Positions 1 to 16,992 of a stretch of DNA of 23,824 nucleotides are shown here, piece after piece; positions within the stretch are counted from its first letter, which is position 1; the number at the start of each line of letters is the position of its first letter. The DNA is from a virus. Under the pieces are notes generated by a model. It worked only from the letters and a program-made list of their open reading frames with translations. It made no database searches and was not told the DNA's origin. The DNA lies in IMG/VR virus record IMGVR_UViG_3300031757_000021, positions 1-23,824 of that record. The stretch is one strand, 5' to 3'. The translations under genes and the position numbers were made by a program.

Positions 1-3000
1 TTTTCCAGCAAGTGCGGGGAATAGTCTATTGGAACTTCATTCTTAATGATGTTCATAGTCCCAAGCTTAAAATCTTTAGTGACGGATGGGGACAACTGGC
101 TCCGGTAAAACTCTCCGACTTCTTTTGACCCCGCAAAGTAAAGCCCATGCCCATAGGCTTGCGCTCCCTCGCCCGTTCCGATTTGCGCCGACCTGAATCG
201 GCCCAGCGGCGCTCCCTCCTCGGCCTTGAACGTGTGCGGAGTCCCGTGGTAGGCGGCCGGCATAAAAAGCATGTTCGGATCGCCGGCGTCGAACGTTCCG
301 CGATTGCTAATAACTTCTATTTTACCAGATTCTATCTGGATAGGAATAATCCCACTTTCTGCTTTTAGTTCTACTTGTTTGCCCTCTAAAAGCCGTAAAA
401 TCTCGTCTAGCGTTAACTTGTCGATTTTAGCTTTTATCGAATCATTTAACGGAGAATCTTGAAGAATATCCGCCAGACTTGCTAAAATGTTGTCAAAATT
501 TGCTTCGGACGGCCTCGAAGATTTTTGAAATATTTCTGGCGGCTCCGGCCAATTTTTATTTTCGTTAAAAGTGGCAACATTATCCCAAGCATCGTGGGCA
601 AACTCTGCTTCAAAGTTAGACGAAAATTCAATTTCTTTTGGGACAACCTTTGACACAAGCAATTTATCGACTTTCTCTTGTATGGATAAAATGTCTTCAT
701 AATTCGGACTTTCCATCAAATTGTCGTCTTGAAGGTTTTGCCGAAAGCCCTCAAGTTCCTCTTTTAATGCTAGTAAATGCTCTCTATCTTTAACTGGAAA
801 TCTTTTCCCGACCATTTTTGTGGTTTTCAGAGCTATAGATGGAGCGAATGGAGCTAAAGACAATAATTTCAAAACTTGCCTTCTATTAATTGATTTTTTC
901 GCAGCGTTTCTAGCCGGCATAAACAACTTGTCCCGGCCATAAGCATCCTTCGAGCGAACGTTGCCCGAACTGGAAAAGCCGTCCTGGGCTTCGTCCGCCA
1001 GCCTCTTGGCCTCAGCCATCTCCGCCTTGGTCCGGTCGACGTTTATCATTCGCCCGAAGCCTTCGCCGGGCTTGTCGCCGGGAAGCTCGTCGAATGGAAG
1101 CGGAATCGTGTCGTCGGGTTGGTTGGGTTTTCGGCGGGGCATGAAATTCTCGGCAATCTTCTCGTAAGAGATTGGCCTCTTGCCCGAAAGTTGAACCACT
1201 TTGCCAATGCGTTCGATACGGCGAGAACGGTAGACGGGTCTAGTGGCCTTACTTCCCGTAAGGCCGGCAAGCCAAGGGTTGGCGTCCAGTTGGCCTTTGC
1301 GGCCTTCGCCGAACGCCGAGTTCAGCAGGTTGCGCCTTGCCTCGGCAATTTGAGGGTCGGCATGAAGTCCAGTCGCTCCGGGTCGTCCTGCGGCGTGGTT
1401 GCGGTGGTAAGTATCCAAGTCGTCTAGGATCAAATCCTTGGCGAGGGCCTCGTCAGACCCGTACAGGCGACTTACCTCGGCCTTCTGCGTCCTGACCAGT
1501 TTCTCGACGTTCTTGACGAGTTGGTCGATGGAAACGGTGCGAAAGTTGATGTTGCCCGCCTTCGTGATTTCAATCCCGTAGGGGACTTCGGTCAAATGTT
1601 CGACTTTGGCGTTAACGTACTTCCGACCGCCTTTGGTCGTCGCCTTGAAGTAAGAGATTAAATACTCATTCCCTTCGCCGGACTTCAGTTTCTCGTTTAA
1701 GTTTCTAAGAAGACCGATCTGTTCCTTGCTCCATCCTCCCGCTTGCTCGACGGCGTCGATCACTTTGTCCGAAAGAAACGTTCCCTCGAAGGCTCCCTCG
1801 ACTTTAGCGGAGGGTCTAACGTGGACTGCCGATAGCTCGCCCTTGGCGTCGGCATCTTCAATGGCGATCTTCAAGGCTTCCGAAAAGCTCTTGTTGTACT
1901 TGGTCCTCTCGCGAGGGGTCATTGCATGACTGGTCGAAAGAGTGCCGTCTTGGTTAACTCGGAAAAACGTGCCGGCGCGGAGAAGGTCTTGCAAGCCGGG
2001 GTGCTTGGCGAAGTCCGCTCCCTTGACCTCAAAAGTGTTTTCGCTTTCGGGGAGTGGAAACTTCTTAGCTCTTGTCTCCGGGTCCAAGCCTTCGAGCTTT
2101 CGGTTGTACTTGCGTATCAATTCAGTCACGGCAGGCGTCCTGCGAAGTTTGCCGAAGATGGCATTGTCGGCCATTAGCGGGCCTTCGGGCCGAAAGCCTC
2201 CACCGAGAATGCCGATCAAATTCTTGAGTAGGGGACGATTTTGGACTAACTCCGTTTCCATGAGTGTGCGCATCATCGCTCCCAGCGGCCCTTCGTGCAG
2301 GTCGCGGTAGCGGCGTTTGTCCTTCAGGAGGAAGTCGGGGCCATGCTCGGCTACGATTTCCCTGACCGTCCTATGGTCGGTCATCACTACGCCCTCCGCA
2401 CCCTCGGTAGCGCCTATCGGTTCGCCGTAGTCCTTGCGAAGGGCCTCAAAGTCGGAGTTGGTCTTGTAACGGCGAGGATTGGTCGGACTTCCCGCCTCCC
2501 CGATTAGGATCGGTTCGCCTATTTCCAAGTCGGGGTACTTTGACTTAGTCTCGGGCGTGACTCGTTCCGAATAAACTCCGGGCTGCTCTGTCAAGGGATT
2601 GCCGATGAGAATGTCGTCGAATTTCTGCATCCCGCCTCGTTTGTCGATGTCGTGGATGATTTCATGGGAAAGGACGAACTCCAGCGCGCGGGGAGAGTCT
2701 ACGTTTATTGCGATATGGCTCGTCTGGTCTTCGACGTAGTGATGCCCCGGCGAGCCGTCCTTCCCCTTGTTCTCGAAATGCATGACGAGGTCGGGGTGGC
2801 GCAACTGCATCGAGGCCATCGCGAGTTGCTTTTCTCGCGGCAACTTGAAATACGCCTCTTTTTGCCCTGCCGGAAGGTAGTTGTCCTTGAAGTGGAGCCA
2901 ATCGCCATAGCGGGCTTTAACGAGTTGAGCGGGGTCGTCGAACCTGCGGAAATGCCCGAAGGCGGCTCCCCCCATGCCAAGCGTCAACCCCATGCCAAGC

Positions 3001-4769
3001 CCTTGGAGGGTCGGGTCTATGTCTTCCCCTCCTCCGGCGACGTACCCGAATCCTGCGCCTATTCCGGCGGCGGGGATTGTAGCTGCTCCGATGCGTCCTC
3101 CTGTTTCGGCAATCCTGCCGAGCTTACTGTCATCTAAAAATCGGGCCAACTGGGCCGAGCCGGGGCCTAGCTTGCCGATTGCTCCCGTTTCGTCGGTAAG
3201 TCCAAAGGCCCTTCTCTTGAGTCCGCCCTCCGCCGCCCCATAAGACCGGCGAAAGCTCGATCCGTACGTCGAGCCTAACGTAGTTCTGTCTATAGCTTGG
3301 TCTATGAGGCGCTCGGGATTGGTCGAGCGAAGTCTTCTGAAGTAGGGCAAGTACTGCTCCGCTTTCATCATCTCCCTTCCCGCCAAGGCCATGTCGCGGC
3401 CATAGCGGGAAAGAAACGCAGGGCCGAGGGCCGTTGCCATAGCCAGCAAAACGTCATCTTCGTCGGCCCCTAAAAGGGCGAATGCGCCCGCTCCTGCCGC
3501 CCCCCTCATTCCCCACTTCGATGCGCTGCCTTGCATCAGACTGGCGGCGGCTTCTTCCGACATTCCAAATTTCCCCAAAAGAGTGATAGCTGTTTCGGGG
3601 GCAATGGTAGAAAGGAAGTCGAGGACGGACCCTATGTTCTCGGCGGTTTTTCCTGCGGCTACAGTCGCGCCTCCGACCACCGTGGCGGCAAGGGGAGCGC
3701 TGCTCTTGATCGGAACGCCCTCCAAGGCGTTCTCAATCATTAGTCTTGCTGGGCTTCCCTCCTCAAGCCCTTCGGCAAATGCTCGCAGGCCAATGTCCCG
3801 CTTCTTGGCGATTGGAGCCAACTTGGCCGCATTCTCGGCTATCTTCCGTTCGAGGACTTGAATAGCCTCGCCGGCCCGAACCGCCTCGCGGCCTGCCTGA
3901 AGTCCTGCCCTACCCCCAACGCGCCCGCCTTGGACCGACCCCGGAGCCGCTTTCGCTACTTGCTCCAGCGCGCGCTGCTGGGAAATCATTTTCAAAGTGT
4001 CTTGAATCAGCGCTCGGTTGGCCCCCGTCAGAGTACCTCTGCCGCCTACCCCGAGGGCCTTCGCCGCCACCCCGAACGGAATCCAGTTCACCGGGTCCAT
4101 GATGAGTGAGCCGCCCATTGCCGCCTTCTGGTCCGGCGTAGCTTTTCCCGATGCCATCAACTCGACGATCTCGGGCTGCATACCTGCGGTTTTCCAGTCG
4201 TCGTCCTTGGCGTATTCTACGGCTACGCCTGCTCGTTGCTTTTCCAGTTCAGCTACACGCTTCCAGTACTTGTAAGACGACTGGAGGTCTTCCTCGGAGT
4301 CGTCGTCCATCATCATGCGGTCGATTACTCTGCCCCCGCCGGTCTTTAAGTGTTTCCAGTTCAGCAGGACGTTACCGCCGGTCTGCTGGGCAGTGGCTTC
4401 CGCTTCTGCGATTTGTTGGTTGGTCCTGCCGCCCGTTACACGTCGAAACGCATCCCTGCCCCAGTACGGCAGCATCCCGAGGGCAGTTACGTTGCCCTCC
4501 TCGTCCTCGTCCCATGAGAATATGTCGGAGAGTAAATGCGAGCCGCCCTCCCATATCATCTTCCCGGCCTCAACGCCGGTATCGATAACGCCTTCCGCCT
4601 TGGCGACGTTCCCCTTGAACGCCCCTTCTTTCTTGAGGGTCTTGAAAAGTTCGTAGCTGGAAGTCATGTCTTCCAGACTTAACGGCATCGCTGGACGCGA
4701 GGCCGCTTCTAGGTAGTTAAAATCCTCCTGTGTCAGGGGACTGGCTACCGGATAAGGAGAGGCTGCCAT
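1..4769 (-). CDS. Large polyvalent ejection protein with zinc metallopeptidase and ADP-ribosyltransferase domains (3' end beyond window)
   Basis: The frame is open from the ATG at 4769 to the left edge: 1589 complete codons with no stop. The N-terminal third is helical and Ala/Gly-rich, with a DPVNWIPF segment at 225-232 of a kind common in large phage internal proteins, and a glycine-rich, membrane-prone stretch at about 550-605. A zincin motif HEIIH lies at 702-706, with EIVAEHG at 804-810 as a candidate third-ligand helix; this fits the MPTase-PolyVal domains of polyvalent proteins. From about 1505 the sequence resembles ART-PolyVal: YHGT (H1508), GTGEGAQAYG (1531-1540) and GLYFA (Y1544), the first two members of a PARP-like H-Y-E triad. 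The third residue would lie past the edge. F-M-P motifs occur at M1210, M1284 and M1503. Last in the ejection module, it sits where T7 has gp16, so I infer it is injected with the DNA. It follows its upstream neighbour by 6 nt. Confidence 0.85.
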   Translation of the reverse strand, partial: MAASPYPVASPLTQEDFNYLEAASRPAMPLSLEDMTSSYELFKTLKKEGAFKGNVAKAEGVIDTGVEAGKMIWEGGSHLLSDIFSWDEDEEGNVTALGMLPYWGRDAFRRVTGGRTNQQIAEAEATAQQTGGNVLLNWKHLKTGGGRVIDRMMMDDDSEEDLQSSYKYWKRVAELEKQRAGVAVEYAKDDDWKTAGMQPEIVELMASGKATPDQKAAMGGSLIMDPVNWIPFGVAAKALGVGGRGTLTGANRALIQDTLKMISQQRALEQVAKAAPGSVQGGRVGGRAGLQAGREAVRAGEAIQVLERKIAENAAKLAPIAKKRDIGLRAFAEGLEEGSPARLMIENALEGVPIKSSAPLAATVVGGATVAAGKTAENIGSVLDFLSTIAPETAITLLGKFGMSEEAAASLMQGSASKWGMRGAAGAGAFALLGADEDDVLLAMATALGPAFLSRYGRDMALAGREMMKAEQYLPYFRRLRSTNPERLIDQAIDRTTLGSTYGSSFRRSYGAAEGGLKRRAFGLTDETGAIGKLGPGSAQLARFLDDSKLGRIAETGGRIGAATIPAAGIGAGFGYVAGGGEDIDPTLQGLGMGLTLGMGGAAFGHFRRFDDPAQLVKARYGDWLHFKDNYLPAGQKEAYFKLPREKQLAMASMQLRHPDLVMHFENKGKDGSPGHHYVEDQTSHIAINVDSPRALEFVLSHEIIHDIDKRGGMQKFDDILIGNPLTEQPGVYSERVTPETKSKYPDLEIGEPILIGEAGSPTNPRRYKTNSDFEALRKDYGEPIGATEGAEGVVMTDHRTVREIVAEHGPDFLLKDKRRYRDLHEGPLGAMMRTLMETELVQNRPLLKNLIGILGGGFRPEGPLMADNAIFGKLRRTPAVTELIRKYNRKLEGLDPETRAKKFPLPESENTFEVKGADFAKHPGLQDLLRAGTFFRVNQDGTLSTSHAMTPRERTKYNKSFSEALKIAIEDADAKGELSAVHVRPSAKVEGAFEGTFLSDKVIDAVEQAGGWSKEQIGLLRNLNEKLKSGEGNEYLISYFKATTKGGRKYVNAKVEHLTEVPYGIEITKAGNINFRTVSIDQLVKNVEKLVRTQKAEVSRLYGSDEALAKDLILDDLDTYHRNHAAGRPGATGLHADPQIAEARRNLLNSAFGEGRKGQLDANPWLAGLTGSKATRPVYRSRRIERIGKVVQLSGKRPISYEKIAENFMPRRKPNQPDDTIPLPFDELPGDKPGEGFGRMINVDRTKAEMAEAKRLADEAQDGFSSSGNVRSKDAYGRDKLFMPARNAAKKSINRRQVLKLLSLAPFAPSIALKTTKMVGKRFPVKDREHLLALKEELEGFRQNLQDDNLMESPNYEDILSIQEKVDKLLVSKVVPKEIEFSSNFEAEFAHDAWDNVATFNENKNWPEPPEIFQKSSRPSEANFDNILASLADILQDSPLNDSIKAKIDKLTLDEILRLLEGKQVELKAESGIIPIQIESGKIEVISNRGTFDAGDPNMLFMPAAYHGTPHTFKAEEGAPLGRFRSAQIGTGEGAQAYGHGLYFAGSKEVGEFYRSQLSPSVTKDFKLGTMNIIKNEVPIDYSPHLLE
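264..920 (-). other. AT-rich module inside the polyvalent gene, with a Tat-like signal at its start
   Basis: This part of the large gene encodes residues 1284-1502, exactly the piece between the second and third F-M-P motifs. By eye its lines are about one third to 40% GC, against clearly over 50% in most of the window, and codons such as AAA, TTA and AAT dominate. Just after the second motif comes SINRRQVLKLLSLAPFAPS, with the twin-arginine pattern RRxVLK followed by a hydrophobic stretch, as in a bacterial Tat signal. The rest is charged and helical and is not recognised. It ends in NRGTFDAGDPN just before the ADP-ribosyltransferase domain. I infer a horizontally acquired cassette; the reading frame is intact through both borders. 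Confidence 0.6.
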
Positions 4770-4775
4770 AGAGAT

Positions 4776-6137
4776 TTAGAGTTGCTTCTCCCAAGGCGTT
4801 CCTTGAAATGCTTTCCGAGGGTCCGGGTCAACCGTATCCGGGGCCGGAATCTTGTGAAACTCCCCGGCGCCATCCTTTACTATAAGAAAGCCCGGAGGTC
4901 CGGGGCCGACAATCGTGACGCCCTCGACCGACCCTCCGGGGAGTACTGTCTGCAAGGTCGAACCCGGTTTGTTCGTCGGGGCCTTTACGGCCCTGTCCCC
5001 CGACAATCCGGTGCGGCGAATCTCTAGGAACTCGGCCGGCACTATATCCTCGACCACCGCCCCTTGCCTTCCAGCTACGTCGGAATAAAAATCCACGTAG
5101 CTGGCAAGTTCATCGAACTGCGCTTGGGCGGTATCTTCTGCGGATTTCCTAAACATTTCCCGCTGATCAGGCGTTAATCTCTCGCCCGTTTTTAATTTAT
5201 TGAAAAGATTCCAGATTTTTGTGTCAACGCCTCCGGCATTCGCCGCAGTGGCGAACTCTCCTTCCCTGACCGTGCTGCCCGGATCAAGAATCTTCATGTA
5301 GCCGAATATCAAGGAAATGTCGTCTGCGGGGCCTGCCCCTTTTGCGGCAACTTTCACTTTTTCGTAAGCGGCGTTGACCTTGTTGAAGTCCTTTACGCTT
5401 GGTAAGGCTATAAACTCTTTGCGTAGGTCTGCGGTGGGCTTTTGCATGGCTGCTTTAACGTCCAACCCGGCTTTCAGTCCGGCGTAGTTTGCCGTCCCCT
5501 CCTTGATGGCCAACTCACGCTCGGCGAGTTTCCCCGCAGTCTCTGCCTTCTGCAATTCAAGCTGGCGGCCTAGTAGCATTTGCTTGGCCTCCGGGCTTTT
5601 GATTGGCGGCATCCCCTCAAGTCGAGCGGTAAAAGCGGAAGGAGATCGGACCGAGCCTAGCCCCGCCGCCGCAGCGTCAGCCCGCCCTTGGGCGAAAAAG
5701 TCTCTAATTCCAGAATCCGAAGGCTCGACAGTCTCGGCCTGCGAAGGCAGCATTAAGTCCAGATACTCCGTTGCCCCCTTCCTCGCCCTGTCCTTCTCTT
5801 GGAAGCGGGAAAAGTCTTCAGACAATTGCCGGGCTTCCGGGTTGTTGAAATAGGTCTTACCGGCTAGGCGAACTTCTACCGAGTCGTCCGGATTTAGCCC
5901 GAGACTCTTCGCGAACTCGGGACTTTTGGAAATGCGAGCCTCGAAAGAGTCGATGAAGTCGCGTTCCTTCTTTTTTGCTTTCTTATGCTCGCGATGCTTT
6001 TCGACCGCCTGCCCCACCGTCTGGCCAATCGACTTAAACGCCTCGCCCCAGTTTCTGCCCGGCGCCGTGGCGGCCTGCATATCCATGCGGGCTATCTGCG
6101 GCGCTGGTCCTCTTCCGAAAAATGGTGTTCTTGCCAT
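4776..6137 (-). CDS. Internal virion (ejection) protein, gp15-like by position
   Basis: A 453-residue protein without a clear family match. A short N-terminal tail rich in Pro, Arg and Met precedes a strongly basic, probably coiled-coil helix (about 40-65, lysine- and glutamate-rich). The middle is charged and helical, and residues from about 395 are rich in Gly and Pro. There is no signal peptide or membrane helix. The ATG at 6137 follows a near-perfect Shine-Dalgarno, TAAGGAGG, which also contains the stop codon of the upstream gene. This is one of only two strong AGGAGG sites in the window, suggesting high expression. It lies between a Gly/Ala-rich structural protein and the giant polyvalent protein, where T7-like phages encode core protein gp15. 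That role is inferred from order only. Confidence 0.65.
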   Translation of the reverse strand: MARTPFFGRGPAPQIARMDMQAATAPGRNWGEAFKSIGQTVGQAVEKHREHKKAKKKERDFIDSFEARISKSPEFAKSLGLNPDDSVEVRLAGKTYFNNPEARQLSEDFSRFQEKDRARKGATEYLDLMLPSQAETVEPSDSGIRDFFAQGRADAAAAGLGSVRSPSAFTARLEGMPPIKSPEAKQMLLGRQLELQKAETAGKLAERELAIKEGTANYAGLKAGLDVKAAMQKPTADLRKEFIALPSVKDFNKVNAAYEKVKVAAKGAGPADDISLIFGYMKILDPGSTVREGEFATAANAGGVDTKIWNLFNKLKTGERLTPDQREMFRKSAEDTAQAQFDELASYVDFYSDVAGRQGAVVEDIVPAEFLEIRRTGLSGDRAVKAPTNKPGSTLQTVLPGGSVEGVTIVGPGPPGFLIVKDGAGEFHKIPAPDTVDPDPRKAFQGTPWEKQL

Positions 6138-6145
6138 AGTTTTTT

Positions 6146-6151
6146 CCTCCT
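6146..6151 (-). promoter_or_regulatory. Strong Shine-Dalgarno AGGAGG for the 453-aa internal virion protein
   Basis: On the minus strand the sequence reads TAAGGAGG, eight bases before the ATG at 6137. The first T of the AGGAGG complement is shared with the TAA stop of the preceding gene. Most other genes here rely on overlapping stop/start codons instead, so this site stands out. Confidence 0.75.
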
Positions 6152-7137
6152 TATTTTGCCCACCTGCCGCCTTCGGAAAGTCCGCCTGTAGCCATAGCTG
6201 CCCCCCCGCTAATTAAAGCAGACGTCATTGCCGACTGATTAGCAGCCGAGGCCGCCCTAGCGTCCATGTCGCCCTGCCAGTTTTGCGTGGCCAGCGCTCC
6301 GGCGTAAGCCGATTCCGGATTAAAGATTGCGGGCGAGGCGTCGAGTCCGAATCCCGCAGTTCCGAATTGGTTGGCGACGTTTGAGCCGGTGTTGAACTGC
6401 TGGCCCGTCAGAGCGAGCAGAGGATCGCCGTATCCCATCCCGAAGGCTGCGGACGCATTTTGCATTCGCTGGGCCTTGGCTCCTCTATCGCCCGATATCT
6501 TGGCTTTCATTCTGGCGTAGTCGGACACGTTCTGCCCGACCAGACCTCGCTGGGCCGCCATTGCAAGAGCCTGCTGGTCCGTATCGCGAGTTTCTTGGGC
6601 GGTCATTCCTCCCCCCGCCTGCATGTCTTCGAGGGCCTCGGTCATTACGCTCTGGCGGAGGCTTTCGGCCAATGGGTCGGCGGCTCGTTGAGCCTCGACC
6701 AGTTGCGGGCCAAGCTCGCGAAGCATATCGATGTCGCCCTGAACTCCTGCCCGTTCTTGCCGAACTAAGCTCGGGGCGATGTAGTCCTCGTAAGCTTCGA
6801 GCAGCCCTATGCCTCCGGGGATGCCGAGCAGCCCCAGTTGGATTTGCTTTTCTAGGTCGGCGTATTCAGGGCGAGTCTCTTTTTCCGCCGCTAAAAGGTC
6901 CGGAGCTAATTCTATCTGCTTGGCCAGAGTGTCGCCCATTTCCTTCCCCAAATTCCGAGGTGGAGGCGGAGAAACATCGCCCTTCTTGTAGCTGGGAATG
7001 CCTCCAGCGGCCGGCTTCCCCTGCCCTCCTGCGGCCATCAGTCCCGCCTCTTCGAGCGGGTTGACGAATGCGAGGCGTTCGCCCGGAGGCGCTGCCTCGT
7101 TCAAAGTGTTTGCGGCGTTTCTAAATGGATCGATCAT
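6151..7137 (-). CDS. Internal virion (ejection) protein with glycine-rich hydrophobic C-terminus, gp14-like by position
   Basis: A 328-residue protein, rich in Ala, Gly, Gln and Met and mostly helical. It has a Pro-rich patch near 55-60 (SPPPPRNLGK) and a hydrophobic Ala/Gly segment at the C-terminus (SALISGGAAMATGG, about 307-320). This layout, long Ala/Gln-rich helices followed by a small-residue hydrophobic tail, is typical of podovirus internal core or DNA-ejection proteins that insert in the host envelope. The ATG at 7137 overlaps the upstream stop codon as ATGA, implying translational coupling. It is the first of three successive proteins of increasing size (328, 453, over 1589 residues), matching the gp14-gp15-gp16 order of T7-like phages. 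No specific family is recognised. Confidence 0.6.
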   Translation of the reverse strand: MIDPFRNAANTLNEAAPPGERLAFVNPLEEAGLMAAGGQGKPAAGGIPSYKKGDVSPPPPRNLGKEMGDTLAKQIELAPDLLAAEKETRPEYADLEKQIQLGLLGIPGGIGLLEAYEDYIAPSLVRQERAGVQGDIDMLRELGPQLVEAQRAADPLAESLRQSVMTEALEDMQAGGGMTAQETRDTDQQALAMAAQRGLVGQNVSDYARMKAKISGDRGAKAQRMQNASAAFGMGYGDPLLALTGQQFNTGSNVANQFGTAGFGLDASPAIFNPESAYAGALATQNWQGDMDARAASAANQSAMTSALISGGAAMATGGLSEGGRWAK

Positions 7138-7513: not shown

Positions 7514-9769
7514 TTATTCGCCAGCCAAAAGACTCTTTTGGAACATGATCTGTCCCGAAAGTTCGTTATGAGTTCCTAAAGGGTCTACGGCAGCATCGTT
7601 GAAAAAGTCGTCGAGGTTGTACTGCGTATTTGCATTCGGACTGTAAAATCTTAAAACGCTTCCGTTTCTGGCTATCATTTGGAAACTATTCGTGTCCGTT
7701 AACTTCCCGTTCGTGTATAGAGTTGCTTTCGCTGAAAAGTTAAGGTCCGACGTGCCGAGTAGCATGGGGTTTTGGGGTAATGTGAGATTAGCGGCGCCCG
7801 CAGGCATCGTGCCTTGGAATTTAACGTAAAAATTCACGCAAACTAAAGGGCCGGATACGTACCAATTACCTACTTGCTCGGTGTAAGTAACGCCCGACCC
7901 CGCCCACGCAGGCGTCCACGTTCCTTGATCCCTGTCCCCCTCGATTATGGAATCGGCGACAATAGCGTATTTAACGCCCGTAGCATAGGAGTACACGTTG
8001 TCCGTGAGTAGAAGCTCGTCTAAGGCGCTGGAGGCGTCCAGTCTATAGATGTAGTTAAAACCTTTGAAGGTGTTGTTAGCTACTTCCAACGACGTCGTCT
8101 TCCCCGCTGTAGTCTTGTTTCGCAGACCGTAAAGCGCCGTATCCCCTGAAAAGTTGTTGCCGACGATCTTAATGGGTCCGGTGGTCTTCCTATAAATGTA
8201 AGCATCGACGCCTGTTTCGTTTACCGGGGGCGTCGTCAAAGTGATTTTCGTGTAATCGACAAAACTGGCTATCGTGAAATCCGCATCGTTCGAGGCAGTC
8301 CCGGTAACGGTAATGACTTTCCCGGCGGCGTAAATGGTAGGGTCGAATTCTCCTGCGGCCAACGTTATGGATGAATCCGCAGCGGCGAAGGTCATCTCAC
8401 GATTGTCTATAGACGCATCGTTTCTGTAGTAAACCCCATAACCACCCTTTAAGTTAGTTACGGTATTGCTTTCAATTATAATGTCGTCCGTTAACTTTGC
8501 GTAGTATGTAGTAGTACCGACGACAGTACCCGACCCCATGAAATCACGAAAACCATTAACGACGTTATTGCTCACCACGACATTCGATAAACCCTCTACC
8601 GACGTCCCTAAAGCGATGGCGTGGCTGTAATCTAAAGTGTTCCTAGTGCTTCTTAAATCTTTGAGGATGTTGTTGGAAACTATGCAGTGACTTCTCTGGA
8701 TTCCTAAAGCGGGGCAATCGTAGCTCGTATCCGTAAATTCTACTACGTTGTTAGCTACGAGCGTGTAGTCACTGAATTGATTTGCGTCCTCTATTCCTCG
8801 CCCTTTTACGGTTATGGCGCCGTCATGGCTGTTTCCACCATTCAATACGTAGTTATCGGTTATTCTTGAAAACGCGGACTTCACGTAAATAGCTTCTGCA
8901 TCATCGCCGTGATCGCTCTTTACGTTCTCTATGTGATTACCACTGATCACGGCGGATTCGCCGTAAACTAAAAAAGCGTGGACCTCGTAGCCTGAAGAAT
9001 TTGAAACTAAAACATTCCGGACCGTATTATCGCTTATTTCGACGCTGGAAACTCTGTCGTCGTTAGACCCTATGATGATTGCACTACAAGCGTGTCCGCC
9101 GGTGTTGCCGAGGCTTTTAAAATAACAGTTCGTGACTTTGTATCTACTCTCTAACCCGGCCACGGAATTTGATCTCAAAAGCAAAACCTGTCTTGAGAAA
9201 TTTCTAAACTCGCAGTTATCAATATATACCTCGTTTACCGTGCAAGCTGTGTCGATTTCAACAGCACCTTCTTGCGTACCGTCGGTTTGGAAAATTGCAT
9301 CTTTAATCGAGAGCGTGTCGTATGTCGTGGCCGTGTCATAATAAACGACCTTTCCGGTAGTTAAATCGTAAGAATTAGAGCCATAAGTTCCTCCTTCGAT
9401 TTCAAGCCAGTCGATATTCGATAGAAAGTTAAACGTAGTGCCGGAAAAGTTGATAGTAGCGCCAGCGGCGTACAGGCGTAAGGAAGGGACGCTATCCGAT
9501 ACTCCGTCAATGCCGCTTGATATTTTGTAATCCCCGGCGGGGACTACCACCGGCCTGCCGTCAGCCGCTTTAATAGCCGCTTTAAACGCTGCCGAGCTAT
9601 CCGTGCCTACATCGCCCACGGCCCCATAGTCCAACACGTTGACGGCGTCCGATGCTCTGTCCGCTAAAGACCTTGCCTCACTCCCGCCGGTGGAAATGAT
9701 GGACGGGTTGACCGTGTTTAGTTTTTCGGAAGTTACTAGCTCGCCGGGAGAAAAAGTAGTGTTCGCCAT
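7514..9769 (-). CDS. Tailspike with pectate-lyase-type right-handed beta-helix
   Basis: A 751-residue protein. The first ~40 residues (FSPGELVTSEKLNTVNPSII) look like a particle-binding leader. Next comes VLDYGAVGDVGTDSSAAFKA (about 45-64) followed by VVVPAGDYKI, the hallmark start of the Pectate_lyase_3 superfamily in phage tailspikes. Residues ~100-640 show many short repeats of the form ISxNxVxN, typical of parallel beta-helix coils. An extra beta domain interrupts the helix at about 459-527. The C-terminal ~110 residues (DQGTWTPAW, then a strand-rich region with LTLPQNP) resemble the C-terminal modules of phage fibres. The likely role is binding and cleaving a surface polysaccharide at the tail tip. 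It begins two bases after the nozzle-like gene ends. Substrate and catalytic acids cannot be assigned by eye. Confidence 0.85.
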   Translation of the reverse strand: MANTTFSPGELVTSEKLNTVNPSIISTGGSEARSLADRASDAVNVLDYGAVGDVGTDSSAAFKAAIKAADGRPVVVPAGDYKISSGIDGVSDSVPSLRLYAAGATINFSGTTFNFLSNIDWLEIEGGTYGSNSYDLTTGKVVYYDTATTYDTLSIKDAIFQTDGTQEGAVEIDTACTVNEVYIDNCEFRNFSRQVLLLRSNSVAGLESRYKVTNCYFKSLGNTGGHACSAIIIGSNDDRVSSVEISDNTVRNVLVSNSSGYEVHAFLVYGESAVISGNHIENVKSDHGDDAEAIYVKSAFSRITDNYVLNGGNSHDGAITVKGRGIEDANQFSDYTLVANNVVEFTDTSYDCPALGIQRSHCIVSNNILKDLRSTRNTLDYSHAIALGTSVEGLSNVVVSNNVVNGFRDFMGSGTVVGTTTYYAKLTDDIIIESNTVTNLKGGYGVYYRNDASIDNREMTFAAADSSITLAAGEFDPTIYAAGKVITVTGTASNDADFTIASFVDYTKITLTTPPVNETGVDAYIYRKTTGPIKIVGNNFSGDTALYGLRNKTTAGKTTSLEVANNTFKGFNYIYRLDASSALDELLLTDNVYSYATGVKYAIVADSIIEGDRDQGTWTPAWAGSGVTYTEQVGNWYVSGPLVCVNFYVKFQGTMPAGAANLTLPQNPMLLGTSDLNFSAKATLYTNGKLTDTNSFQMIARNGSVLRFYSPNANTQYNLDDFFNDAAVDPLGTHNELSGQIMFQKSLLAGE

Positions 9770-9771
9770 GA

Positions 9772-11415
9772 CTATTCGTATTTCGTGGTTAAATTGTTCG
9801 AGCTATCGGTAAGCTCGGCCCGCATTCCTCGGAGCTGCATCATGCCTGTGCCGGTAAAACGGTACTGGAGTGCCTGCCCGCGAGTTCGCAGGCTGAAACG
9901 AGTTAGAAAGTTTTCGTCGGCAGTTGAGGGGATGCTCGGCGTGAAGGTCGAAGTCGAGTCGGGATCGCGAGCGTAAAGACTGACGGTCAGGCCAACGCTC
10001 GACTCTTTAGTTTCCCCGGCAAATCCGCCTCGCCGGAAGCTTTCCACGTCCAAGTTGTTCCCGCCGTAGTGGCGAGTGTCGAGCGTCCATGCGATCTTTG
10101 CCGCCCCATCCAAAGCCCCCTGCTCTAGAAGAATCAGTTTGCCGTCATTCGTCGCGGCGTAGAGCCGCTCGACAGTTTCGCCGGTTGGCGTGGCCCGGAC
10201 GAAGTCCTTGATTAGGAAAGAATATTCGTCGCGAGACTCCCACGCCTCGATTTCCGAATTGAAAATATAAATCTTTGTGCCTGTTCCATTCTTGAAGGCC
10301 AGATAGTAGCGATTGTCGAAGTAGACGCTTCTGGCGGAGGTCTGGGCCTCCTTCATGTCCTCGGCGAGAATCTGGTTGTTGATTGGTTTGGAAAGAGGTT
10401 CGGATCGTAGGTCGAACTGGGTAAGAACTCCTCGCGTGTTCGAGGCATCCACGCCCACGTCGAAGGCGTACACGCCCTTGTCCGATAGAAAGAATATAGC
10501 CGAACCGATGTTCTGAATCGTATGCCGTGAAACGCAGCCGATATTTCCACTGACCTGAGTTATGGCCGCATTGGGAAGAAGCTCCAAATCCGAAATAGCC
10601 CAAGTGGATCGGCGTTTGAAAACGATGGCGGCGTTTTCCGGCACGGGGGCCATTCCGACTACGTCGTCGCCATCTCCCTTGCCGAAGGTAAATTTGTTCA
10701 GGACGTCGAAGTTCGACGGGTTGGCGAGATCGGAAAATGCTATCTGATCCTTATCCGACTGGACGGCCATCCTGTCGCCTACGACTATTCCATAGTCCGT
10801 TTCCGGAATGCCGGGATCGACGACGAAATCTCGAACGTCGTTTACTTCGTTGCCGTCCCAGACTTGGGCCGGGCCGCCGAGGTAAAAGGCCGTCAGGGAA
10901 ACGGGGAGGAAGTTTCCGAGGCCTTTGAATACGATTTCCGAGTTATTGAACTGAAGGCCGTCATTACTGCCCGGGAAAGAGCCGAGCGAGACGAAAGCGT
11001 TTGCCTCTTGGACGAGCAAATCCCCGGATTCGGTCAGGAGGCTATACCGAGTTAAATCCGGACTCGTACCGCCTTCCAGTAGGATTAAATTTTGGTCGAA
11101 GCGGACGGTCGAAGTGGCGGACCCGTCCCATAGTTCCATCGATTTTACCTTGAAAAGAGCGACATTGTTAGATCGGTCCGAGCCTATGCCGCCGAAGAAA
11201 TTCGCCGAGTAAGTAGTCGCCCCGAGGCTCACTTTCTGGACGTATCCATAGCGAGTCGTCGCCGTGCCGTCATCCATCCGGACGTTCTTGGCATCCGCCA
11301 CGAATCCGGTCGGAAGTAGGGCCGAGTCCTCGCGGGACATTATGCCACGAACTAAAGCATCGCCGACCTCCCGCATGGGAGAATCCAGTTTTCCTAGTTG
11401 GCGAAACTTTCTCAT
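9772..11415 (-). CDS. Tail nozzle / hub protein (T7 gp12- or P22 gp10-like, beta-propeller type)
   Basis: About 547 residues, almost entirely beta strands. The opening (DALVRGIMSREDSALLPTGF, then AKNVRMDDGTATTRYGY) is typical of podovirus tail hub/stabilisation proteins. Mid-protein signatures also fit: VGDRMAVQSDKDQIAFSDLA, GDDVVGMAPVPENAAIVFKR and the FFLSDKGVYAFD blade motif. Such proteins plug or extend the portal as a hexameric nozzle. Start: an in-frame GTG at 11439 would overlap the preceding fibre gene by 23 bases, with a GGGAG only one base away, too close to serve as its ribosome-binding site. The ATG at 11415 lies one base after that gene's TAG and suits coupled re-initiation, so I prefer it. 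A small inverted repeat, GTTGC-GATT-GCAAC, covers the junction. Confidence 0.75.
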   Translation of the reverse strand: MRKFRQLGKLDSPMREVGDALVRGIMSREDSALLPTGFVADAKNVRMDDGTATTRYGYVQKVSLGATTYSANFFGGIGSDRSNNVALFKVKSMELWDGSATSTVRFDQNLILLEGGTSPDLTRYSLLTESGDLLVQEANAFVSLGSFPGSNDGLQFNNSEIVFKGLGNFLPVSLTAFYLGGPAQVWDGNEVNDVRDFVVDPGIPETDYGIVVGDRMAVQSDKDQIAFSDLANPSNFDVLNKFTFGKGDGDDVVGMAPVPENAAIVFKRRSTWAISDLELLPNAAITQVSGNIGCVSRHTIQNIGSAIFFLSDKGVYAFDVGVDASNTRGVLTQFDLRSEPLSKPINNQILAEDMKEAQTSARSVYFDNRYYLAFKNGTGTKIYIFNSEIEAWESRDEYSFLIKDFVRATPTGETVERLYAATNDGKLILLEQGALDGAAKIAWTLDTRHYGGNNLDVESFRRGGFAGETKESSVGLTVSLYARDPDSTSTFTPSIPSTADENFLTRFSLRTRGQALQYRFTGTGMMQLRGMRAELTDSSNNLTTKYE

Positions 11416-11416
11416 T

Positions 11417-11977
11417 CTACCATGTTGCGATTGCAACACGCTCCCAAGTATTCGTTGCCGTGCAGACGTAAATGTAGCCAGTATCCCATGCGATAGTGCC
11501 GATTGTCCCAGTGGCCGAGGCCTCGGCCGGAGTGCTAGTCGCCAATTTCAAAGAGGTGAGAGTTCCCAGCGAAGTGATCGTGGGCTGGGCGGCGGTAGTT
11601 ACTGTGGCGGCAGTGCCAGTCACGTTGCCAGTCACGTTGCCTGTAAGCGGCCCGCTTAATGCAGTGGCAGTTAAAGTCCCAGTCCCGGCGTTGTAAGCCA
11701 ATCCCGCATCCGTTTTTGCGGCTTGATTCCCCGTGGCAGCCTCGAATAAAGCGACTGAGCAGGACGTGTCAGTAGTGTCGGCGGTGGCCACGGTGTTAGC
11801 GACTGTGGCGGTCGTTGCAGTAGTAGCGTTCCCCGTCAAATCCGACTTCATTAAATTGGCTACGGTAATCTTTTTCGTAGTGGGCGTCCCCGAAACGTCG
11901 ACGAGGGCTAGGACGGAGCCAGTTGCCGGTTTTGCGTCCGCGAATGCCGAAAGGGCTGTGATTTTAGTATTAGCCAT
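11417..11977 (-). CDS. Repeat-rich fibre protein
   Basis: A 186-residue Thr/Ala/Val-rich protein. The start MANTKITALSAFADAKPATG with the following VLALVDVSGTPTTKKIT is a widespread N-terminal module of phage fibre or head-fibre proteins. Low-complexity TGN/TAT repeats occupy residues ~47-70 and 108-130 (GPLTGNVTGNVTGTAATVT). The C-terminal block, GTIAWDTGYIYVCTATNTWE (about 160-179), is a common fibre tip. The residue pattern fits a slender trimeric beta structure; no enzyme motif is present. It starts four bases after the previous fibre gene and ends one base before the preferred nozzle start, so it belongs to the tail/fibre operon. Attachment to tail or head cannot be decided. Confidence 0.7.
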   Translation of the reverse strand: MANTKITALSAFADAKPATGSVLALVDVSGTPTTKKITVANLMKSDLTGNATTATTATVANTVATADTTDTSCSVALFEAATGNQAAKTDAGLAYNAGTGTLTATALSGPLTGNVTGNVTGTAATVTTAAQPTITSLGTLTSLKLATSTPAEASATGTIGTIAWDTGYIYVCTATNTWERVAIATW

Positions 11978-12874: not shown

Positions 12875-13008
12875 GTTTTGACTGCCTCGACGTTCGAGCA
12901 TCCGCTAAATAGTTCGATGATAGCTATCGCCACTATGATAAGAGCGAAGCCGGTTAGTATTTTGCCCCGCTTGGACAGGCCATTAAAAATTTCAAGTAGC
13001 TTTATCAT
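12862..13008 (-). CDS. 48-aa single-span membrane protein in the lysis cluster
   Basis: A short ORF from the ATG at 13008 to a TAG at 12862-12864. The product begins MIKLLEIFNGLSKRGK, continues with a long hydrophobic helix ILTGFALIIVAIAIIELF (about 17-34) and ends SGCSNVEAVKTWKF. A basic N-terminus followed by one membrane span suggests N-in topology. The SGC after the helix faintly resembles a lipobox, but Phe at -3 and the long preceding helix make lipidation doubtful. Its start lies inside the last codons of the u-spanin-like gene (17-base overlap) and its end covers the start of the holin-like gene (13-base overlap), so all three are in different frames and probably coupled. It could be a second holin, an antiholin or another lysis accessory. 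Confidence 0.6.
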   Translation of the reverse strand: MIKLLEIFNGLSKRGKILTGFALIIVAIAIIELFSGCSNVEAVKTWKF

Positions 13009-13414
13009 GTTTGTCACAAATTTTCTTTATTTTTTTCGAGTTCGACCGGGTAATGAAAAGAGGTATTGTCAGGAATCCGAGGACTACGAATGCCGCCACT
13101 TTCAGGGCCGTCCAGATCGTGTCCGTAGCCTTCTCGATGGTACTCTGCTGGCCCTTCATCTGGGCCGAGACAATTGCTGAAACGTCGCCACGGCTTAGAG
13201 CATCCACGGTACTGACTAAATCCTTGTTCGTCTCGACAAGGGCGGCTCCCTTGCCTACGGACCAGCCGAGAAGTGCGCCGCCCCCGGCGGCCACCGGGCC
13301 GCCCACCGACCCTGCGGCCCCGCCGACAGTCGCGCCGAGTGGGGCGTAAAAGCCAGTTCGAGAGCATCCGGACAAAGTGAGCATGGCTAAAGTCATTGTG
13401 GCAAGGAGCCTCAT
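12992..13414 (-). CDS. Lipoprotein with C-terminal membrane helix, unimolecular spanin-like
   Basis: A 140-residue protein. Residues 1-17 form a lipoprotein signal peptide: a basic start, a hydrophobic core, then LSGC with Cys17 as the predicted lipidated residue. A glycine-zipper-like stretch (about 27-58, GATVGGAAGSVGG and similar) is followed by a probable helix (60-97). A transmembrane helix at about 98-122 (WTALKVAAFVVLGFLTIPLF) precedes a short basic tail (SKKIKKICDKHDK). Outer-membrane lipid anchor at one end and inner-membrane helix at the other is the architecture of u-spanins such as phage T1 gp11, which fuse the two membranes at lysis, and the length is similar. It overlaps the upstream gene as ATGA and the 48-aa membrane gene downstream. 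A lipidated virion protein is the alternative. Confidence 0.6.
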   Translation of the reverse strand: MRLLATMTLAMLTLSGCSRTGFYAPLGATVGGAAGSVGGPVAAGGGALLGWSVGKGAALVETNKDLVSTVDALSRGDVSAIVSAQMKGQQSTIEKATDTIWTALKVAAFVVLGFLTIPLFITRSNSKKIKKICDKHDKAT

Positions 13415-15771: not shown

Positions 15772-16992
15772 CTATATGATCGAACCAAGTGCGCGAGGGT
15801 TAGTCACGCATAGCGAAATCATGGCTTCTACGAATGCCCTCGGACCTGCTGCCAAGTCTGGAAGATTCTGAGTGGTGATGCCTTCGAGGAACTTCAAGCT
15901 GACCGTGTCGTCGCCCGGAATCAAGTAGGCTCGATTCGAGTTGAGGACGCCGTCGTCAGTGTTGTACCCTCTGGTCCAGAGTCCGCCTGTTCCAGCTCCG
16001 GCAGCCCCGGTTTGGCCAGTTATGGTAAATGTCGTCGGAGCCGTTACTGTTATGGCAAACGTCCCGTTGATTGCATCATTCCCAGTAACTCCGCTGATAG
16101 TAACAGTGTCGCCGGTCGTAAGCCCGTGAGCCGCAGTAGTCGTAATGACGGCAGGGTTCGCGGTCGAAGACGAAGTGATGGCAGAACCTACCTCGCGTCC
16201 CAAGAAGAGGTCAGGTATTACCTTAACCGTTCCGTAGTCCGACTGGTATTCGGTAATGCTGAGAGTCAATCGACCTCCGCCTACTTCTTGATTGAAAGCC
16301 GCAGAGTTTGCGTTGGCTCTCGACATGTCCGAGATCGCGTTAACGATGGCCGGGCCGGCGAACAAACGATAGTCTGTCTTCGATCCGGATGCTTCGTAAA
16401 CGGCCTGAAGAACCGAGCGCAAATTCGCTTCGGTCATTGCTCCCGGTGTACTGTAGTTGAAGCGTGAACCGGAAACGGACCTAACGCTCGCAGGAACGTC
16501 GGCGGCAACGGCGGCAGGATCGGACCAGATGCCCAGACCTTGCGACTTAGCGGCTACTGAACCGGACCCGGCTACTTGAGAAGCGCCAGAACCGATAACC
16601 GTTTCGATGTCAGTTTTCAGCTCGGTGAGCGACTTTGCCTTGGAGGCGGCCATGAGGCTCTCTCCGGGGGCTACGTCGATCATCTGAGCTTGGCGCGAAA
16701 CAGCGTAGGCTCGGCGAACCGTCTGGACACGATTCCCGAGGCGAACTCGGGAATTGATCTGGTCCTCAAAACCCGTGTTGAAAACCATGTCGACGCCGTC
16801 GATGACGCCGTTTGCGTCAGGGCTGGCGAGAACGTCCCCAAGCCATTCCGTAAGGACGGCCTTGGGAGCTGCGGACTGCTTCAATGTGGAATACATTGGA
16901 GTGGTTGAGGGCGAAACGAAGCGCAAAATATTTGCGAGGTCTTCCCTCGCGCCTTGCGTACTTGTAACGTTGAAACTTGTTGCTACTGCCAT
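15772..16992 (-). CDS. Major capsid protein, SU10/DUF5309-like HK97-fold type, with an inserted beta domain
   Basis: A 406-residue protein. REDLANILRFVSPSTTPMYS (16-35) followed by TEWLGDVLASPDANGVIDG is the recognisable N-terminal pattern of SU10-type capsid proteins. The central helix-rich region includes ELKTDIETVI and DYRLFAGPAIVNAISDMS, and the C-terminal part has YGTVKVIPDLFLGR (253-266) and NRAYLIPGDDTVSLKFLEG (353-371). Between these two lies an extra Thr/Val-rich domain (about 270-338), which explains why the protein is longer than the ~300-340 residues usual for the family. The ATG at 16992 is preceded by AGGAGG with a ten-base spacer. It follows the scaffold gene and is closed by a strong terminator, consistent with very high expression. 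It forms the capsid shell. Confidence 0.85.
   Translation of the reverse strand: MAVATSFNVTSTQGAREDLANILRFVSPSTTPMYSTLKQSAAPKAVLTEWLGDVLASPDANGVIDGVDMVFNTGFEDQINSRVRLGNRVQTVRRAYAVSRQAQMIDVAPGESLMAASKAKSLTELKTDIETVIGSGASQVAGSGSVAAKSQGLGIWSDPAAVAADVPASVRSVSGSRFNYSTPGAMTEANLRSVLQAVYEASGSKTDYRLFAGPAIVNAISDMSRANANSAAFNQEVGGGRLTLSITEYQSDYGTVKVIPDLFLGREVGSAITSSSTANPAVITTTAAHGLTTGDTVTISGVTGNDAINGTFAITVTAPTTFTITGQTGAAGAGTGGLWTRGYNTDDGVLNSNRAYLIPGDDTVSLKFLEGITTQNLPDLAAGPRAFVEAMISLCVTNPRALGSII

Follow-up and report, generated by a model that had tools for sequence, protein, structure and literature searches.

A recurrent peptide at the module joints of giant phage polyvalent proteins, a candidate processing site

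Few early weapons of phages and plasmids are as widespread as the polyvalent proteins. In the portions of their 2017 description that we cite here (Iyer et al., PMC5512222), they appear as large, phage-encoded multidomain proteins that join a zincin to ADP-ribosyltransferase (ART) and other enzymatic domains, are probably injected, are assembled from mosaic modules and are predicted to be processed by their own zincins; P1 DdrB is known to be processed. The protein analyzed here is of the same kind. However, the passages that we searched name no cleavage site or inter-domain peptide, whereas here a protein-specific peptide, which we call the seam, lies at the joints and at the edges of exchanged cassettes.

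Three other systems invite comparison. As in the polyproteins of RNA viruses, many functions share one chain with an embedded protease, and a short site is repeated between the parts; the protease is of another class, however, and the effector cassettes are swappable, so that the likeness is operational, with cleavage of the giant being predicted only. As in polymorphic toxins, a conserved N-terminal core is followed by exchangeable toxin-like modules, but the giant strings several modules together where those toxins have a single C-terminal tip, its delivery with phage DNA is deduced, and no immunity gene was seen. With P22 it shares the gp7-gp20-gp16 gene order and an upstream neighbor homologous to a gp20-type protein, although it is several times longer than gp16, bears enzymes and has no detectable homology to gp16.

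The giant gene and its neighborhood

The window that we analyzed (the whole stretch of 23,824 bases, a virus record) contains an open reading frame at 3..4769 on the minus strand that encodes 1589 amino acids from an ATG start, and whose C-terminus is lost at the left end of the contig. No Pfam or PHROGs family scored over its cut-off against this protein. It nevertheless combines a zincin and an ART-PolyVal-type domain, that is, domains of disparate biochemistry, in one phage-encoded polypeptide, and it is a fresh member of the polyvalent proteins, the class to which a preliminary description of this DNA had linked it; the new part is the seam. An N-terminal core, from residue 1 to about residue 1206 (1152..4769, minus strand), is common to its relatives according to BLAST, with identities of 96% (P0002), 41% (L019) and 25-28% (L013, L014, L017 and L039). 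Elsewhere, relatives carry ART, GNAT, ASCH and RHH-like domains. A near relative, L002 (IMG/VR contig 3300048880_000152), is complete at 2529 amino acids and is 96% identical to the giant over residues 1-1289, after which the two proteins are unlike.

The gene immediately upstream of the giant (4776..6137, minus strand) encodes a 453-residue protein in the gp20 position that is homologous to P22-type ejection proteins. Its tblastn matches include Kapi1 (E 3e-8), SEN22 (4e-7) and a virion structural protein of Mx8 (1e-17), and the matching proteins are annotated in SEN22 as 'released from the phage upon host infection' and in Kapi1 as a DNA transfer protein. The next gene (6151..7137, minus strand) encodes a 328-residue protein that is assigned to the gp7 position by its location only, as a search for it gave no match. 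A neck protein at 9772-11439 has a weak match to head closure Hc3, and the same holds in SEN22. The giant itself showed no homology to P22 gp16: an hhalign comparison of its N-terminal core with proteins of the gp16 slot gave a probability of 0.8%. Given the homology of the 453-residue upstream protein to P22-type ejection proteins, we nonetheless place the giant in the gp16 slot of a P22-type ejection set, and from this gene order it is probably ejected with the DNA; it would then enter the cell in the place of P22 gp16. The preliminary description had put it last in a gp14-gp15-gp16-like series. The position at the end of an ejection series stands, but the upstream match makes the likeness one to P22 gp7-gp20-gp16 rather than to T7.

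Several other genes on the minus strand of the window merit mention. At 7514-9769, a position at which the gene varies among relatives, lies the gene for a tailspike-like protein, whose pectate-lyase-type domain matches PF12708 (3.6e-9). An open reading frame at 12992-13414 encodes a 140-residue, lipoprotein-like product with an LSGCSR lipobox, possibly a spanin-like or surface protein. The major head protein (15772-16992, phrog_1328) has a C-terminal insert that resembles a domain of major tail proteins (phrog_584) and that perhaps decorates the capsid.

The zincin region and the ADP-ribosyltransferase module

The metallopeptidase domain proposed in the preliminary description is supported. 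The zincin-type region comprises residues 600-880 (2130..2972, minus strand), as judged from a multiple alignment (A2) and an AlphaFold2 model. Its HEIIH motif (residues 702-706; 2652..2666, minus strand) would supply two zinc ligands and the general base, and Glu804 of EIVAEHG (2358..2360, minus strand; column E205 of A2), located 98 residues past the second His, is the predicted third ligand. H702, E703, H706 and E804 are invariant among 16 homologous giants, whose identity to the window protein in this region is for the most part only 17-25%, and the composition of the proteins in the set would lead one to expect only about 0.05 HExxH motifs per protein by chance. The structure prediction that had been suggested as a check gave a zincin topology with moderate confidence: three strands (E63-67, E76-81 and E84-90), a long helix bearing HExxH (H96-122) and a second helix bearing the Glu (H199-216), with a pLDDT of 87-95 over the HExxH helix and 67 overall. 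The cited portions of PMC5512222 describe the zincins of polyvalent proteins as arranged in this way. Searches with profiles and structures gave weaker signals. No curated Pfam profile for a zincin exceeded its cut-off in the window protein, phrog_87 (metallo-protease) matched it below cut-off with an E-value of 0.07, and the best sub-threshold profiles among its homologs were M48 (0.0068) and, for one protein, Peptidase_M4 (0.0025). Matches of the model in a Foldseek search of the PDB were weak, with none significant, and several of the top ones were zincins.

One relative deviates from this pattern. In L015 (6737-13654 of its locus), the zincin motif reads EELGH and so lacks its first His, but the protein retains four seams as well as the downstream Glu. 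Judged by its motif, this domain may be a pseudoenzyme or have an altered metal site.

The ART-PolyVal-type module (3..254, minus strand) is represented in the window by its first 84 residues, where the contig ends. YHGT, with H1508, and GTGEGAQAYGHGLYF, with Y1544, are both present, as had been noted. The missing part can be read from relatives in which the domain is complete, L010, L009, L012-L016 and L019 among them; complete modules of 13 relatives were compared, and 30 sequences were aligned. In this alignment, H15 is invariant and Y51 is at least 90% conserved. The window ends before the next conserved position, which is D or E within KYL[DE]G in nearly all of the complete sequences. These sequences also contain an invariant Asn in a YNYV[IL]F strand, which, as far as can be read off the pattern, would be equivalent to the Glu-bearing strand of PARP (YNEYIVY). 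The H-Y-E triad of PARP enzymes that was initially assigned is therefore not supported: the third catalytic Glu that was to be sought was not found as such, and the relatives instead have H, Y and [D/E], with Asn where PARP has Glu. An H-Y-D group of ARTs has been described for polyvalent proteins in the cited parts of PMC5512222. A model of the L010 module, the closest complete one, has a pLDDT of 87 and matches ART-PolyVal-like entries in BFVD with E-values to 1e-13, while a Foldseek search of the PDB with this model gave nothing significant. Because of these fold matches and the residues found in the relatives, we regard the window module as probably of the H-Y-D kind. As seen in the complete relatives, its YHGTPH type resembles PF18760 (ART-PolyVal) and Tox-ART-HYD2 in fold, in having H and Y in the right strands and in having [D/E] near strand 5, but it differs in a long variable insert, in the invariant Asn of the YNYVIF strand and in scoring below the Pfam cut-off.

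A hexapeptide at the module joints

The window protein contains two copies of [KM]LFMPA that the preliminary description had overlooked: KLFMPA at residues 1281-1286 (912..929, minus strand) and MLFMPA at residues 1500-1505 (255..272, minus strand), the latter at the end of NRGTFDAGDPNMLFMPA. Among related giants, K-L-[FY]-M-P-A occurs in 2-7 copies in each of 24 distinct open reading frames, with a broader form [KR]-[LMQ]-[FY]-M-P-[AS]. Across five contigs (31-38 kb) of related phages, [FY]MP[AS] is confined to the giant gene, and to one of its frames. The sequences around the seams are unrelated: in 21 non-redundant contexts, pairwise identity outside the motif is 0.04-0.22 per column (0.04-0.1 in most), while the hexapeptide is kept. 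Our search pattern fixed only F/Y, M, P and A/S, so that the K and L positions lay outside it; position -2 is K or R in 18 of the 21 contexts, and position -1 is biased to L, M or Q. We found no published description of such a motif in the open-access literature.

The seams coincide with the places where homology ends. In the variable parts of these proteins, 25% of the ends of BLAST alignments lie within 5 residues of a seam, as compared with 4.8% expected from random positions, and 42% lie within 10 residues (9% expected). The window and L002 illustrate this at the DNA level: their sequences are 90% identical over the last 30 bases through the end of the first seam, directly after which they diverge, with an identity of 20% just past it. 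More generally, the window protein and its relatives part directly after GRDKLFMPA, and the same GRDKL[FY]MPA precedes four different modules in four relatives. The modules found between seams in relatives include a canonical ART-PolyVal domain (the second ART module of L014, which matches PF18760 with an E-value of 9e-26), a GNAT domain over its cut-off, and ASCH and RHH-like domains. HExxH is present in 16 of the 17 seam proteins that have a complete core, and it lies upstream of every seam. We are almost certain that most module joints carry the seam peptide, and that the anatomy of these giants is that of a conserved core followed by interchangeable modules.

In the window, the exchanged cassette comprises residues 1287-1505 (255..911, minus strand). 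Its left edge is the first seam itself, and the next copy, with which it ends, closes it. Its G+C content is 38.7%, as compared with 57.8% in the core, and the cassette appears to be foreign. Within the first 10 residues past the seam, it opens with a Tat-signal-like stretch, INRRQVLKLLSLAPFAPSIA, which has a weak NCBIfam TAT match (E 0.064). Such a start would suit an N-terminus that is freed by cleavage, but it is only a hint.

A recurrent peptide at domain joints could be maintained either as DNA or as protein. All four Pro codons and all four Ala codons occur across the seams, and between genes every synonymous codon for Pro, Ala and Phe is used while the amino acids persist. Within individual genes, however, the seams resemble one another in their synonymous codons more than chance would predict (P 0.0004 in L009 and 0.002 in P0002; also in L015), and copying of DNA between seams must therefore also happen. 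The codon evidence is thus mixed within this family; it is clear in others, which we consider below.

Cleavage, recombination and other readings

We propose that these ejection proteins are built like polyproteins. The N-terminal core with its zincin would be followed by interchangeable effector modules in series (two types of ART, GNAT, ASCH, an RHH-like domain and unnamed ones); the seam would serve as the recognition and cleavage site, with the giant's own zincin as the candidate cutter; and cutting at the seams, in the virion or in the host, would free the modules as separate enzymes. Newly gained modules would stay functional by virtue of being bounded by seams. Because the seam peptide recurs between modules, self-processing by the zincin is at least as likely a role as modification of the host. 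We see an even chance that the chain is processed at the seams, with the giant's own zincin as the likeliest protease. There are observations that count against this proposal. Pro is unusual in a cleavage site. L015 retains four seams despite its EELGH zincin, and HExxH is not significantly more common in seam proteins (7 of 8) than in other ART-bearing giants (44 of 62; P 0.43), so that a special link between HExxH and the FMPA seam is not supported. Moreover, according to the cited portions of PMC5512222, N4 vRNAP contains a domain of this kind and is packaged without being cut.

The main rival to cleavage is that the seam is a recombination joint only, in which short shared DNA lets cassettes swap and the peptide is simply carried along or forms a flexible linker that does no harm. 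The sharp breakpoints, the AT-rich cassette bounded by seams and the homogeneity of codons within L009, P0002 and L015 would all fit this. Nevertheless, we regard it as unlikely, given that the Pro, Ala and Phe codons all vary between genes while the amino acids stay, that F and Y are exchanged such that an aromatic residue is retained, that the motif occurs in one frame of one gene only, and that comparable words of other polyvalent proteins (see below) survive switches between AGY and TCN serine codons. It is also conceivable that the modular proteins are cut by another protease, either a host enzyme acting after ejection or an unrecognized phage enzyme, while the zincin attacks host proteins. 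The retention of seams in L015 and the absence of a special tie between HExxH and the seam speak for such a division of labor. However, an S78 prohead protease can be rejected as the cutter, as none is present in seven records, and seam words that differ from protein to protein are easier to reconcile with a private protease than with one host enzyme for all; we consider this reading quite improbable.

Slightly less probable still is the model of the preliminary description, in which the giant is an uncut, bifunctional effector whose zincin and ART both act on host targets. Zincins are effectors in other conflict systems, and TraC1, like N4 vRNAP, enters uncut (PMC5512222, in the portions cited), but this model does not account for the retention of a single hexapeptide at so many joints. 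Finally, the seam Met could be an internal translation start from which modules are also made as separate proteins. Most seams do contain an ATG, and the duplex energy is below -5 in 39% of seams as compared with 22% of controls. However, the median anti-Shine-Dalgarno pairing is the same at seams as at other internal Met codons (P 0.36), and some seams read FIPA or YTPA and so have no ATG. Lacking a Shine-Dalgarno excess in the median, internal starts were rejected as an explanation and seem very improbable indeed.

We searched other large open reading frames for repeated words with dissimilar flanks, and found, among polyvalent proteins, TLFQ four times in L094 (corrected P 3e-6), TDYS four times in L149 (1e-7), AHFS three times in L150 (3e-4), ETFSL three times in L107, FQR five times in the Methanosarcina virus MetMV and MLSR three times in L109; [FY]SIK (three times in L129) and FSIG (four times in L114) were found by inspection. 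L149 and L150 are two Akkermansia prophage-like loci with related polyvalent proteins that share an ART junction, VDFSHVSRAL. In each protein this junction is preceded by that protein's own word, TDYS in L149 and AHFS in L150. In the words of L149, L150, L107 and L109, the copies differ in whether Ser is encoded by AGY or TCN, which argues for selection on the peptide rather than for copying of DNA.

A possible, though rather doubtful, generalization is that true polyproteins are the rule among polyvalent proteins and that each has a private processing code, in which each protein's seam word (KLFMPA, TLFQ, TDYS, AHFS, FSIG, FQR etc.) co-evolves with its own zincin, and a new effector cassette can be acquired only when it is flanked by the word of the protein that receives it. 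A test of own words with plain 3-mers in 75 proteins gave a P-value of 0.0006 with the FMPA family included, and a marginal one of 0.04 when that family was left out. Repeated words were matched in 18 of 91 polyvalent proteins and in 17 of 154 other large open reading frames, rates that are not very different. The generalization therefore draws on the single proteins named above, for which low-complexity repeats and this similar control rate call for care.

The recurring seams provide exact candidate sites at which to ask whether, where and by what polyvalent proteins are cut, and the processing predicted in 2017 thereby becomes testable site by site. They also separate modules objectively, which is useful for finding new effector domains, and they point to what may be a family of zincin proteases whose specificities are short and differ from one another.

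Two further observations concern the reach and the ends of these proteins. The 3002-residue protein of MetMV (L003, 2970-11978) has HExxH and a YHG-type ART start in addition to its five FQR words, and the arrangement therefore reaches an archaeal virus. Giants of this family, including those of L013, L014, L016, L019 and L152, commonly have one of two C-terminal tails: a 480-residue module ending in IRD[EQA]R, or a 41-residue tail of the form ...MPGNRFMAPAASAG..LSERFR, which may be a packaging signal.
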